Below the pieces are notes generated by a model. It saw nothing but the letters and a program-made list of their open reading frames with translations. It was not told the origin of the DNA and ran no database searches. This document shows positions 2,006 through 6,263 of a stretch of DNA of 10,627 bases, piece by piece. Position numbers and translations under genes: made by a program. Each line of letters opens with the position of its first letter. Positions within the stretch are counted from its first letter, which is position 1. The stretch comes from Thermomicrobiaceae bacterium (lineage in GTDB: Bacteria > Chloroflexota > Chloroflexia > Thermomicrobiales > Thermomicrobiaceae): positions 1 through 10,627 of the forward strand of contig SKTL01000530.1 of assembly GCA_007122555.1 (NCBI GenBank), read 5' to 3'.

Positions 2006-3601
2006 TTAGCTCGCCGCGCTCTCTTCGCGTTCGATCCGAGGGAAGATCGGGCGGGCTTTCTCAACGCGTTCGACGCGCGGCGCGGCGCCCCATTGCAGGG
2101 CGTCGGTCCAGCCGTGGTCGATCAGCTCAAATCCGAGCTGCTCAGCCATACGGTGGGAAGCTGCTGGCAGGAACGGCCGGATGGCGTGACAGGTTACTCG
2201 CAGTGTTTCCACTAGATGATACAGCGTTTCATCGAGTTTCAGTGTCGCCGACTCGTCGCCGTTGCGCTCCTCTTTTGAGACCGCCCACGGAGCCATCTCT
2301 TCGACGTATCGATTTGCCCGTGCGACCAGATCGTTGATCGCCGCCAGCGCCGCCTGCGGGTCGTAATCGTCGCCCATCGTCGCGTGGAGTCGATCCGGCA
2401 ACCCTTCGGCGGCACTCCGAAGCTCGCGGCTTTCCGGCAATGCCGTCTCGCCGTCTGGTACGAGACCCTTTCGATAGCGCCCAACCATACTGACCGTCCG
2501 GTTCAGCAGGTTGCCGAGATCGTTTGCCAGGTCCGCGTTGTAGCGGCGTTCCAGCTTGTCATTGGTGAAGTCCGCGTCGAGCGTTGCCGGAACCTCGCGG
2601 AGCAGCCAGTAGCGAACCGCATCCGCGCCATACGCGGCGCAGAGATCGACCGGGTCAATCGTGTTGCCGAGGGATTTACTGATTTTTCCGCCGGCGATCG
2701 TCAGGTAGCCGTGGACGAACACCGTTGTTGGCAATGGTTCTCCGGCGGATAGAAGCATTGCCGGCCAGTAAACGGCGTGAAATCGCAAAATGCCCTTGCC
2801 GATGCAATGAACGCGATCCGGACTGTTCACCCAGTAGCGATCGTACAGTTCCGAATCCTGTCCGTAACCGAGCGCGGTAATGTAGTTCGCCAGCGCATCA
2901 ACCCAGACGTACATGACCTGATCGGGATCGTTTGGCACCGGAACACCCCACCCTCGGGCGCGCTCGCGAGAACGTGAAACGCTCAAGTCTTCGAGGCCGC
3001 GAGCCACGAATGATCGAACTTCGTTTCGACGCGATTCCGGGATGATTCGCATGCGTCCGGAGTCTATGAATTCAAGCAGCTGATCCTGATAACGTGAAAG
3101 CCGGAAGAAGTAATTCTCTTCCTCCACCAGGTCTGGCCGAACACCGTGATCAGGACAGAGCCCGTCAACGAGTTCATCCTCGTTGTAGAACTGCTCGCAC
3201 CCGACGCAATAGAGTCCCTGGTAGGCCTTACGATAAAGGTCGCCGTTCGCTTCCAGCTTCTTCCAGAGACGGGTTGCTCCCGCGAAATGCCTCGGATCCA
3301 CTGCGGTGCGAATGAAATCGTCATACGACACATGAAGCAGGTCGAGAACGTCGACAAATCCCTGCGCATTTCGGTCGACCAGTTCCCGCGTGGTTATTCC
3401 CTCGCGCTCGGCCGCCTGGACACTCTTGAGCGAGTTCTCGTCGGTGCCGGTCAGGAAGCGGGTATCTCGGTCGATCAACCGGTGATAGCGGGCAAAGACG
3501 TCTGTTTGCACCATCTCCAGGGCGTGCCCGATGTGCGGCAACGCATTGACGTAGGAGATGGAAGTGGTTATGTAGTAACGATCTCGAGCTTCACCTGACA
3601 C
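2006..3601 (-). CDS. metG: Methionyl-tRNA synthetase (short form)
   Basis: 531 residues. It attaches methionine to tRNA-Met in the cytoplasm by ATP-dependent activation, for both initiation and elongation. Class I signatures are present: HIGH at 23-26 and the KMSKS-type loop as KISKS at 306-310. The connective insert carries one zinc knuckle, C132-x2-C135-x13-C149-x2-H152, as in the Thermus-type enzymes, and not the two-knuckle E. coli arrangement. The anticodon-binding helical domain follows, with N-R-Y-V-E-E-M-A-P-W at 430-439. The protein ends after a R-P-I-F-P-R-I-E segment, so the C-terminal Trbp111-like tRNA-binding domain found in many MetRS is absent, which is usual for this short class. 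The start is GTG at 3599-3601, with AAGGTG (complement of 3609-3614) seven bases upstream. No T-box-like leader is visible. It is transcribed toward the lipoprotein gene and away from ftsH. Confidence 0.96.
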   Translation of the reverse strand: MSGEARDRYYITTSISYVNALPHIGHALEMVQTDVFARYHRLIDRDTRFLTGTDENSLKSVQAAEREGITTRELVDRNAQGFVDVLDLLHVSYDDFIRTAVDPRHFAGATRLWKKLEANGDLYRKAYQGLYCVGCEQFYNEDELVDGLCPDHGVRPDLVEEENYFFRLSRYQDQLLEFIDSGRMRIIPESRRNEVRSFVARGLEDLSVSRSRERARGWGVPVPNDPDQVMYVWVDALANYITALGYGQDSELYDRYWVNSPDRVHCIGKGILRFHAVYWPAMLLSAGEPLPTTVFVHGYLTIAGGKISKSLGNTIDPVDLCAAYGADAVRYWLLREVPATLDADFTNDKLERRYNADLANDLGNLLNRTVSMVGRYRKGLVPDGETALPESRELRSAAEGLPDRLHATMGDDYDPQAALAAINDLVARANRYVEEMAPWAVSKEERNGDESATLKLDETLYHLVETLRVTCHAIRPFLPAASHRMAEQLGFELIDHGWTDALQWGAAPRVERVEKARPIFPRIEREESAAS

Positions 3602-3660
3602 AGCTTCACACCTTACTCAGCGGGGCTCGTCTGACGCGACGATTTTCGGCCATATTTCAA

Positions 3661-3676
3661 GCGAAAGGATACCACG
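3661..3676 (-). promoter_or_regulatory. Candidate metG promoter with extended -10
   Basis: On the minus strand this reads CGTGGTATCCTTTCGC, containing TGG-TATCCT, an extended -10-like element (TG-n-TATxxT). Transcription would start about 57 bases before the metG GTG. There is no clear -35. Nearly the same 16-mer (14 of 16 identical) lies upstream of fabD at 6312-6327, which is the main support. The rest of 3602-3776 holds only small hairpins, GGATAC/GTGTCC (3667-3682) and TTCAG/CTGAA (3740-3754), and no reading frame of note. Confidence 0.4.
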
Positions 3677-3776
3677 GTGTCCGATGATCTCCGGCCTGAG
3701 GGACTACCATTTCACGGCAGCTATGGCCACGACTGATGCTTCAGATGACCTGAAACCAGTCAATCCTCCATTCGTC

Positions 3777-4099
3777 TTAACCGTACACAGCTATCAACTG
3801 CAGGGGACGATTCGCTGCCGTCAGGCGGGAAATACGACGACCTGACAGGCGGATCCGGGTCTCCTGCAGGGAGCTGGAATGCCGAATCAGGACTATTTCT
3901 CTACAGATTAGTAGAGAATGCGTCGGTTCCAGAGGTGGACATTTTGGTTCACAGGGGCCACAATAGGGGTATGGCGCTGGTCGACGTACGAGTCGGCTGA
4001 CTGAGCGCCTGAGACACGCTCCGTTACTCTTGCACACTAGACTCATCTCCTCCTCACGTGCGGGGCAGCCGTTACAAAGCGGCTGCCTCGTGCGGTTTA
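3777..4099 (+). ncRNA. Candidate multibranched structured RNA, unknown class
   Basis: Hand folding of the + strand gives adjoining helices. P1 closes the domain: AACC (3779-3782) with GGTT (4094-4097). P2 (3788-3876): CAGCT/AGCTG; then an 11-bp stem of 3798-3808 with 3859-3869; then CTGCC-GTCAGG (3815-3825) with CCTGAC-A-GGCGG (3841-3852). P3 (3877-3930): GAA/TTC, CCGA/TCGG and a perfect 8-bp TTCTCTAC/GTAGAGAA hairpin. P4 (3932-3939 with 4048-4055): 8 positions with one U-U mismatch, enclosing three hairpins, namely 3942-3963, GGCGCT/AGCGCC with inner GTCGAC/GTCGGC (3973-4009), and TGAG/CTCA (4010-4045). P5: a 15-bp stem of 4057-4071 with 4080-4094. P3, P4 and P5 are separated by single A residues (3931, 4056). 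The stems contain several G-U pairs that would be A-C mismatches on the other strand, which favours + transcription, although I searched mainly that strand. It is either a free-standing RNA or a far-upstream part of the ftsH leader. No known family is recognised. A decayed palindromic element is the main alternative. Confidence 0.45.
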
Positions 4100-4122
4100 T
4101 GGCGGATTTTCCACGCATTTCA

Positions 4123-4150
4123 TTGCCCGAGACGTTAGAATTGGTAGTAT
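4123..4150 (+). promoter_or_regulatory. Weak candidate ftsH promoter
   Basis: TTGCCC (4123-4128), a 16-base spacer and TAGTAT (4145-4150) resemble -35 and -10 boxes, each matching 4 of 6 consensus bases. A start near 4157 would give a leader of roughly 95 bases that begins just at the hairpin 4161-4184. Support is modest. Confidence 0.25.
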
Positions 4151-4160
4151 GAACTGGGAT

Positions 4161-4252
4161 CTGTGGGTACGCTGGAACCCACGGATTGCGCCACATGACG
4201 AATTTATGCGAATACCAGGATGAATTCGCCTGCCGAAGGGGTTCCCCGCCTT
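4161..4252 (+). promoter_or_regulatory. Hairpin-rich ftsH leader with possibly occluded RBS
   Basis: Three hairpins follow one another. CTGTGGGT (4161-4168) pairs with ACCCACGG (4177-4184), including one U-G. GCGAAT (4208-4213) pairs with ATTCGC (4224-4229), in competition with CAGG/CCTG (4216-4219 with 4229-4232). The Shine-Dalgarno AAGGGG (4236-4241) can pair with CCCCTT-like bases downstream: AAGG with CCTT (4249-4252) plus GG with CC (4246-4247), with a bulged G4248 and a UUCC loop. The last one would hide the ribosome site directly in front of the start. Whether it melts with heat or binds a factor is unknown. Confidence 0.35.
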
Positions 4253-4253
4253 G

Positions 4254-6263
4254 ATGAATAACCGAGATGATCAATCTAACCGGCAGAAGAAATCCGGTGG
4301 GCAGGACGGAGAGCAGAAGTCCCGGCCCAGCTTTCCGATCTGGATCCTCTGGGCCCTGCTGATCTCGCTGTTCGCCTACAGCGCTTACGCGTATTTCTGG
4401 CCGTCTGGCGATCCGACGATCGACATTTCGTATTCCGAACTCCGCCAGCAGGTGGAAGCCGGAAGCATCAGCCGGATCACGATGGAGGGCGAGAACGTCT
4501 CTGGCGAGTTTACCGCCGAGATGGTGGAGTACGAAGGTCAGATTTATGGCCCGGACGAGGCGCTGCCGTCGGGAGCCGATTCCGAGGAGATTACGCAGAG
4601 CGTTTACTTTGATTCGGCGGTTCCAGAGAACACCCAACCGGATTTTGTCGCCTTCGCCACCGAAAACAATGTGTCAGTGACGGCCGAGCCGTCATCGGAC
4701 GGAATGTTCGGATCACTGCTCTTCCTTGCGATTCCGCTCCTGCTGTTCATCGTCATCCTCTTCTTCATTGGTCGGAGCATGTCTCGCGGGCAGCAGAATG
4801 TGTTCAGTTTCGGGAAATCAAAGGCCAAACAGTACGATCCTGAGCGTCCGAAACTGACGTTTGCCGACGTTGCCGGTGAAGAAGAATCCAAAGCGGAACT
4901 GGAAGAGCTGGTTCAGTATCTTAAAGATCCGGCCAAGTTCCATAATATCGGAGCCCGGTTGCCGCGCGGTATTCTGCTGGTGGGCCCGCCGGGAACCGGC
5001 AAGACGCTGCTTGCCAAGGCGGTCGCCGGTGAAGCTGGTGTTCCATTCTTCAGTGTTAGCGCTTCTGAATTCGTCGAGATGTTCGTCGGTGTCGGCGCAA
5101 GCCGTGTCCGCGACCTCTTCGAGAAAGCGAAGACGAACTCGCCGGCGATTATCTTCGTTGACGAGCTCGACGCGGTGGGTCGTCAGCGTTTTGCCGGCGT
5201 CGGCGGCGGTAATGACGAGCGTGAGCAGACGTTGAACCAGTTGCTCGTTGAGATGGACGGGTTCGATCCGCATGAAGACGTTATCGTGGTCGCCGCCACG
5301 AACCGACCCGATGTGCTCGATCCCGCCTTGCTGCGACCAGGACGTTTTGACCGTCAGGTGACGGTTGGTCTGCCGGACAAGAGAGGTCGCGAGGCGATTC
5401 TGAAGATCCACACCCGCGGTATCCCCGTCGACCAGAATCTGGATCTTGGCCTGATTGCCTCGGCGACACCCGGTTTTGCTGGCGCCGACCTGGCGAACCT
5501 GGTTAACGAGTCGGCATTGATGGCCGCGAGACGGGATAAGAAGGTCGTCGAGAAGGACGATTTCGATCTTGCGCTGGACAAAATCATTCTGGGCACCGAA
5601 CGCTCGATGGTTATGAACGATCACGAAAAGCGCGTTGTCGCCTACCACGAGGGCGGCCACGCTATCTGTGCGCACTTCTCACCGGGAGCGGATCCGCTTC
5701 GCAAGGTCACAATCGTTCCGCGGGGCCGCGCGCTCGGTGTAACGATTCAGGCGCCGGAAGAGGATCGCTTCAACTACTCGCGGAGCTACCTGCTCGACCG
5801 CCTGGTTGTCATAATGGGCGGGCGCGCTGCCGAGCGGCTCGTGTTCAACGAGATCACGACCGGCGCGCAGAACGACCTGAAAGAGGCGACGCTGCTTGCC
5901 AGGCGAATGGTCGGACTCTGGGGCATGAGTGACGAGATTGGCCCCATCTTCCTCGGTATGGGCGAGCAGCACGTCTTCCTTGGGCGCGAGATGGGCCAGG
6001 AACGCGAAGTCGGCGAAAAGACGGTCGACCGAGCTGATGAAGCGGTTCAGCGAATCCTCTATGAGGCGATGGATCGCGCTGAGACACTCCTGCGCCAATA
6101 TCGGGATCGACTGGACGCGCTGGCCGATCAACTCATTGAAGATGAGACCGTGGATCGAGAGGGATTGTTTGAGCTCCTTGGCCCGCACGCCGTTCCGGCC
6201 GGTGATTCCACGGCAGTCGCCGATATGACACGCACTGATGAGCACGGTCACGGATCCGGGTGA
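4254..6263 (+). CDS. ftsH: ATP-dependent zinc metalloprotease FtsH
   Basis: 669 residues. It is a membrane-anchored hexameric AAA+ protease that unfolds and degrades misassembled membrane proteins and short-lived regulators. The N-terminal tail is cytoplasmic and polar. TM1 is at about 28-49, an extracytoplasmic segment of about 100 residues follows, and TM2 is at about 152-174. The AAA module has Walker A GPPGTGKT (244-251), the pore loop M-F-V-G (276-279), Walker B IIFVDELD (299-306) and the second region of homology with A-T-N-R-P and R-P-G-R-F-D-R (348-367). The M41 protease domain has HEGGH (465-469; E. coli-type enzymes have HEAGH) and the third zinc ligand Asp541 in N-D-L-K-E-A-T. All catalytic residues are present and the length is normal for the family. 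ATG 4254 is taken as the start. The adjacent TTG 4251 is also in frame and is closer to the AAGGGG site (9 bases against 12), so the first residue is uncertain by one codon. The long leader suggests post-transcriptional control. Confidence 0.97.

Follow-up and report, generated by a model that had tools for sequence, protein, structure and literature searches.

Beside ftsH, the Thermomicrobiaceae probably carry a previously unlisted small RNA gene that has so far been found only in this one family of the Chloroflexota. It is seen here in a window of 10,627 nucleotides, the whole stretch of DNA analysed. Judged from its sequence, the conserved unit at 3971-4098 is, with moderate confidence, a trans-acting base-pairing small RNA (sRNA) of the family, which would be countered by a partner or sponge RNA made from an ECF-type promoter. 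The features concerned are:

3752..3780, plus strand: putative ECF-like promoter, GAAACC-N15-CGTCTTAA, in the window's genus only
3788..3918, plus strand: upstream folded stretch, a long imperfect hairpin and an 8-bp hairpin, from the predicted fold
3936..3964, plus strand: predicted sigma-70-type promoter of the sRNA from a consensus scan, -35 TGGACA, 17 bp, -10 CACAAT
3971..4098, plus strand: proposed sRNA, about 100-144 nt in the family, both ends predicted
3973..4009, plus strand: 5' hairpin from the predicted fold, differing widely in sequence and length among relatives
4032..4056, plus strand: single-stranded region with the anti-Shine-Dalgarno seed CUCAUCUCCUCCUCA, mostly invariant in 20/20 loci
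4057..4094, plus strand: 3' hairpin CGUGCGRGGCAGCCG/CGGCUGCCUCGUGCG, stem nearly invariant, loop variable, U-tract weak or absent
4136..4141, plus strand: -10-like element TAGAAT with a weak -35, a putative separate ftsH promoter
4251..6263, plus strand: ftsH (M41 protease), adjoining the sRNA in 20/20 loci

The element lies where the first-pass annotation had placed it, in the 649-bp gap (3602-4250) between the divergent genes metG (minus strand, 2006-3601) and ftsH (plus strand, 4251-6263). This gap measures 612-693 bp in the five loci of the genus. By tblastn, ftsH is present in 20/20 loci, and metG in the five genus loci and in none of the 15 others across the flanks retrieved, which reach ~1.5 kb at most. 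Elsewhere in the window, the product of 572-1984 is a protein of 470 aa that contains seven WG beta repeats. Upstream of ftsH, 20 of the 21 family genomes share an almost invariant segment, some 66 nt long. In a DNA search of 101 genomes, from which matches with E > 1e-9 were dropped, 20/21 family genomes matched at E 1.5e-10 or better, the window's own included; the part common to all family matches is approximately 4032-4094, and within the genus the match reaches 4143-4168. A core covariance model (R1) likewise recovered 20/21 family genomes (E 2.5e-22 to 2.2e-20), with a best E of 0.0012 among the other 40 of the 61 genomes of the order. Under stricter filters, 11 of 400 sampled genomes of the phylum matched R1 at E<=1e-4, all of them from the family. 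The one family genome without the sRNA (G020) is 54% complete and also gives no ftsH match. An exact 29-nt pattern occurs in 16 named stretches, titled Thermomicrobiaceae, Sphaerobacter(aceae), Thermomicrobium, Thermalbibacter or Bacterium HR26-28. Outside the family, three ftsH homologues (L202-L204) have in the 450 nt preceding them neither CTCCTCCTCA, with one mismatch allowed, nor a perfect hairpin of >=10 bp; four further loci, partly not in ftsH orientation, were left out of this comparison.

The first-pass annotation had proposed a new structured RNA of 323 nt (3777-4099), closed by a terminal helix. A plus-strand RNA is supported, with different boundaries: only the 3' third of that stretch is conserved, and the unit that relatives share is approximately 3971-4098. 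Folding beyond chance was borne out on the plus strand, where the stretch reaches -144.2 kcal/mol and 100 dinucleotide shuffles average -110.8 +/- 5.2 (z -6.40; 0/100 as good); the minus strand gives z -3.07. The 15-bp stem exists as described (4057-4071 paired with 4080-4094), and its wobble pairs do fit the plus strand, with 0-1 non-pairs over 14 stem positions in 20 relatives, compared with 2-3 on the minus strand. The single closed design did not hold up: judged by eye, the alignment of the 5' half to four congeners is poor and the terminal helix is not kept in them, and the upstream stems are not kept outside the genus. As that annotation had judged from the absence of the usual landmarks, the stretch matches no familiar RNA class. 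No tRNA or tmRNA was found, and no Rfam 15 family reached its gathering score in the whole window; at E<=5, the sole match in 3600-4260 is unrelated (25 nt, other strand, E 2.9). A dispersed repeat or mobile element was considered and rejected: the element has one match in its own genome and none at E<=1e-5 in phage and plasmid collections, and no repeats were reported in 3602-4250.

The proposed sRNA runs from a 5' hairpin through a single-stranded seed to a 3' hairpin (3971-4100, z -3.61), its start placed 7 nt past the -10 and its end at the 3' hairpin. The site at 3936-3964 is the sole promoter-like site reported in 3602-4260, a scan that did not report the TAGAAT at 4136-4141; since shuffles give 0.7 such sites on average, this match alone is not significant. 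At the corresponding place, the pattern T[GA]GAC[AG]-N17-[GC][AC][TCG]A[AC]T occurs in 20/20 loci (N18 in three), so that each sRNA locus has, by sequence, a putative promoter of its own. The background is 19 occurrences in 440 kb of strand sequence, or 0.006 per 144 nt, for a pattern devised after inspection of the alignment and a set that itself includes 16 sRNA loci. The 5' hairpin is predicted in most of the 20 loci, with a different fold in a few (such as L004, L017 and L019). Its covariation, in the 11 of 20 sequences that were aligned, is limited: both sides are changed in 3/22 pairs (covariation term -0.34), and two pairs are broken in 3-4 sequences. The anti-Shine-Dalgarno stretch reads CUCAUCUCCUCCUCAC. 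Within it the pyrimidine-rich CUCCUCCUCAC is invariant in 20/20 loci, and the 10-nt seed is predicted to be accessible, with a mean unpaired probability of 0.45-0.98 in 16 genomes.

Among the 20 sequences, the stem of the 3' hairpin has A-U changed to G-U in six and G-C changed to G-U in one, and shows a U-U mismatch in three. Each sequence contains 2-3 G-U pairs, which are meaningful on the plus strand only. Compensatory changes, which the first-pass annotation had proposed to seek in this stem (its P5), are absent; the stem is conserved in sequence, and because it hardly varies, covariation cannot prove it. No intrinsic terminator above threshold was found for the window's sRNA, which has a strong hairpin and a poor U-tract, and by eye a T-run follows the hairpin in 2/20 loci.

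Weak R1 matches were tried as further members and rejected, none having the sRNA promoter pattern in the 10 of 13 fetched regions that were read. Many other second R1 matches read the same hairpin on its opposite strand. Several of the weak ones lie at gene ends, where CUCCUCCUC precedes an unrelated hairpin; these are possible siblings rather than members. Five such places (L188-L191 and L194; G013:C73, G010:C322, G005:C1, G003:C135 and G010:C99) have CUCCUCCUC and then a strong unrelated hairpin, and may be sibling anti-Shine-Dalgarno 3' ends. Those in G003 and G010 (C99) lie, by eye, shortly past the stop of apparently the same gene.

The second component is a cassette at the end of miaA, a gene of tRNA modification. 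A search with CTCCTCCTCACGTGCG (<=1 mismatch) in the 21 family genomes gave 40 matches: 20 to the sRNA, 16 to the partner in 15 genomes, and 4 others; the reversed-pattern control gave 3. A second, contig-end partner copy in G002 is counted here as a match and not as a genome. In the partner, the 3' end of miaA bears CGCACGTGAGGAGGAG, the reverse complement. With a variant in G007 counted, the partner is present in 16/16 family genomes that have a miaA match. No miaA match came from the other five; among them is the window's own genome, an 85%-complete assembly with neither miaA nor partner.

In order, the cassette consists of an ECF-like GAAAC-N18-CGTA, the seed complement and a hairpin. The spacing is 18 bp in 17/18 copies, the one in G047 having 17 bp, and the intervening bases vary; the -35 is AAAAC in G007 and GAATC in G018. 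The arrangement resembles ECF-sigma promoters, the sigma-W promoter of B. subtilis being TGAAAC-N16-CGTA. The exact pattern occurs 17 times in 440 kb, a set that contains the partner loci and is no independent control. A hairpin of 8-16 bp begins 0-5 nt past the partner site in 17/17 copies scanned. Its stems differ among genera and still pair, and a T-run is present in the window's genus. The miaA gene ends before the cassette in the g1 and g2 loci read; the site lies inside the miaA frame in g3 (L085) and overlaps the miaA stop in g6 (L090), so some coding constraint at these two loci is conceivable. Because miaA varies in position relative to the cassette, and the hairpin stems change yet pair, the cassette is conserved as nucleic acid.

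Several loci depart from this plan. G013 has a second partner copy 3.5 kb past miaA, and the gene between its two cassette copies (L082, L113; G013:C61) looks by eye like a molybdopterin-type dehydrogenase. At the miaA end of G007 (L116), one partner RNA would contain two complement-like sites, CGCGCGTGGGGAGGAGG and GGCACGTGAGGAGGCAC, the second directly before the hairpin. In G047:C98 (L097/L124), from another family, a family-like miaA with cassette occurs in a genome that has a second miaA; this partner copy, probably foreign or contaminating, enters the spacing and hairpin counts and no genome count. Upstream of dnaA in G004 (L138; G004:C219:1849-1881) there is GAAACC-N17-CGTAGATTAA without the complement, which suggests a further member of the same sigma regulon. 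Given this occurrence, the ECF-like pattern is a promoter-like motif and no proof of a partner.

The sRNA and its partner share a continuous duplex of 13-23 pairs in 17/17 copies from 16 genomes, an extended seed:partner complementarity of the RosA/RoxS type. Shuffled sRNAs reach 8.7-10.1 pairs on average and 12-15 at most (100 mononucleotide shuffles each, which also break up the CUCC repeats). From the seed, the duplex extends into the 5' arm of the 3' hairpin, through CGUGCG in most genomes and to AGGC in six (21-23 bp). Partner changes within the site in the genera g3, g4 and g6 replace A by G, so that G-U pairing is retained. Changes that break pairs are an outermost C-to-G in G005 and G010 and an internal one in the miaA-adjacent copy of G013, whose duplex has 13 pairs, the longest among its shuffles having 12. 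The sRNA side hardly varies, so double changes are not to be expected. Total duplex energies lie below the shuffled mean in 12/12 computed pairs (200 mononucleotide shuffles each) and beat all 200 shuffles in three (G001, G002, G003); in the other nine, the shuffled minimum is lower than the real energy. This measure discriminates poorly because both RNAs are G+C-rich hairpins. The continuous-pairing count separates the pair, and total energy, which joins both long hairpins, does not do so well. Words like the Shine-Dalgarno and anti-Shine-Dalgarno sequences have little complexity, and convergence could therefore account for part of the match.

Taken together, these features suggest how the sRNA could act. 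A vegetative sigma-70-type promoter would make an RNA of 100-144 nt, whose 5' hairpin would protect its end and whose 3' hairpin would end and stabilise it. Its single-stranded CUCAUCUCCUCCUCAC seed would cover purine-rich ribosome-binding sites of mRNAs. A second RNA, made from the ECF-like promoter where miaA ends, would present the seed complement just before its own terminator and, by pairing in the cell, titrate or destabilise the sRNA while the alternative sigma factor is active. No family-wide mRNA target emerged when GTGAGGAGGAGATGA, the 15-nt complement of a ribosome-binding site, was sought with <=1 mismatch in the 21 genomes; apart from the complement that the sRNA itself has, there were 14 sites against 6 for the reversed control, with a few variants recurring in 2-3 genomes. 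Hfq passed the Pfam cut-off in 0/61 genomes of the order and in 5/14 control genomes, the one weak match (G013) scoring 22.3 bits against a cut-off of 27. With no Hfq over the cut-off in these 61 genomes, pairing would be Hfq-independent. A more elaborate and rather speculative version is an Hfq-independent two-RNA switch, in which the ECF-driven miaA-end RNA would pair with the toehold, invade the lower 3' hairpin, free ribosome-binding sites and open read-through into ftsH; the network would also include, as siblings, the further 3' ends with CUCCUCCUC and a hairpin.

The sRNA reading is weakest where a clear U-tract is missing, and for this reason a leader of ftsH, one of three options offered in the first-pass annotation, stays a rival, although not the preferred one. 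Here the 3' hairpin would be an attenuator, and RNA from the miaA end would bind the CUCCUCCUCAC toehold, invade the 5' arm and permit read-through into ftsH under ECF stress. We regard this as unlikely, with some points to its credit. The gene adjoins the element at every locus, and in the single family genome that lacks the element no ftsH was matched; the duplex does pass from the toehold into the stem arm (CGUGCG, or AGGC in six genomes). FtsH is a stress protease, a role that fits such control. An attenuator would, however, also want a U-tract, and in most relatives a separate TAGAAT or TACAAT stands 3' of the hairpin, roughly 30-90 nt downstream by eye; this -10-like element is probably the promoter of ftsH. 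Alternatively, a partner that opens the hairpin and changes ftsH in cis may coexist with a trans-acting sRNA, the two being not exclusive; StsR is reported to act in this way on UpsM and the dcw leader (PMC8307010). Of the other options in that annotation, the free regulatory RNA is the best and a ribozyme-like element is without support.

A nearly invariant stem with a variable loop and no covariation is also what a DNA operator would leave, the palindrome and spacer being bound by a regulator of ftsH and the RNA fold a by-product. This is improbable, because the conserved G-U pairs are mismatches in a DNA palindrome, about 25 nt 5' of the stem are about equally conserved, the upstream promoter is kept with near-exact spacing, and the partner shares the seed together with CACGTG within a promoter-terminator cassette.

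A single 323-nt RNA (3777-4099), read in the window's genus from the ECF-like promoter at 3752-3780, is less probable again. The strong fold of the whole speaks for it, as does the ECF-like site (GAAACC-N15-CGTC, with TTAA), which ends where 3777-4099 begins. This site has a counterpart in 5/5 genus loci (one with ACAAC) and in 0/15 other family loci, 700 nt upstream being searched (434 nt in one); the exact GAAACC-N15 pattern has two matches in the 21 family genomes, both at this place. As a lead only, it could start a long RNA at about 3784, near the start proposed earlier. The 8-bp hairpin UUCUCUAC/GUAGAGAA (3897-3918), outside the sRNA, is recognisable by eye in 4/5 genus members; one C-G pair has become U-A, a compensatory exchange, and two members show a mismatch. 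The 5' half, 3777-3935, gives z -5.41 in the window's genome and, over 60 shuffles, -4.20 on the plus and -4.13 on the minus strand. Against one long RNA, its counterparts in four congeners, the first two near-identical in sequence, fold more weakly (z -2.1, -3.3, -1.1 and -0.4 on the plus strand; -3.3, -3.1, -3.1 and +0.2 on the minus strand), most no more on the plus strand than on the minus. No conservation of 3777-3935 was found beyond the genus, its closing helix is not conserved, and the family-wide sigma-70-type promoter (3936-3964) falls midway inside. Least credible is the opposite strand, where the reverse complement of the block reads as a Shine-Dalgarno sequence and then AUG in 20/20 loci, so that GUGAGGAGGAGAUGAG would either supply a micro-ORF (MSLVC/MRLVC/MRQVC) with its ribosome-binding site and start codon or belong to a leader of metG: the frame is lost by eye after five codons, metG is there only in genus loci, and the stem has 2-3 mismatches on that strand.

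The favoured reading, an sRNA with a sponge, has parallels elsewhere. In B. subtilis, C-rich regions of RoxS and FsrA act on mRNAs and the sponge RosA carries a G-rich complement, while in Firmicutes Hfq has no global role in sRNA pairing (PMC8216469). The likeness, at the level of description, is that of a C-rich sRNA and a G-rich complementary second sRNA independent of Hfq; the RNAs described here differ in being linked to ftsH and miaA. StsR of Rhodobacter sphaeroides depends on an alternative sigma factor, pairs with UpsM and alters its structure, and acts on the dcw leader (PMC8307010). There too, an alternative-sigma sRNA pairs with another sRNA, one that originates 5' of a conserved gene cluster; UpsM, however, comes from the dcw 5' UTR and binds Hfq, whereas the ftsH-side RNA would have its own predicted promoter and no Hfq was found in the order. 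RNAs related to SmelA075 and SmelA099 bear the names 'cuckoo' and CcsR. SmelA075 and SmelA099 display CCUCCUCCC in three or four hairpin loops (PMC3927594). The shared feature is an anti-Shine-Dalgarno motif of the CCUCC type, and in place of CCUCCUCCC in several loops the RNA described here has one CUCCUCCUC in the linker between two hairpins. The Caulobacter sponge CrfA is reported to inactivate the sRNAs SisA-D under stress (PMC12559287), a likeness at the level of description; CrfA differs in being Hfq-associated and having four sibling targets. For the Chloroflexi, a 2010 survey of structured RNAs mentions Chloroflexi-1 (Chloroflexus aggregans) and the pan motif; its main text names neither ftsH nor Thermomicrob (PMC2864571). 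Among the matches listed in open-licence literature on Thermomicrobia sRNAs, Chloroflexi structured RNAs, anti-Shine-Dalgarno sRNAs and sponges, no title or opening of an abstract describes this RNA, a weak absence, and none names a regulatory sRNA of Thermomicrobia.

If the favoured reading is true, circuits of an anti-Shine-Dalgarno-seed sRNA and its sponge exist outside the usual model phyla. For the Thermomicrobiaceae, an sRNA almost unchanged across the family and a conserved partner, with no detectable Hfq, offer two exact sequences to probe.
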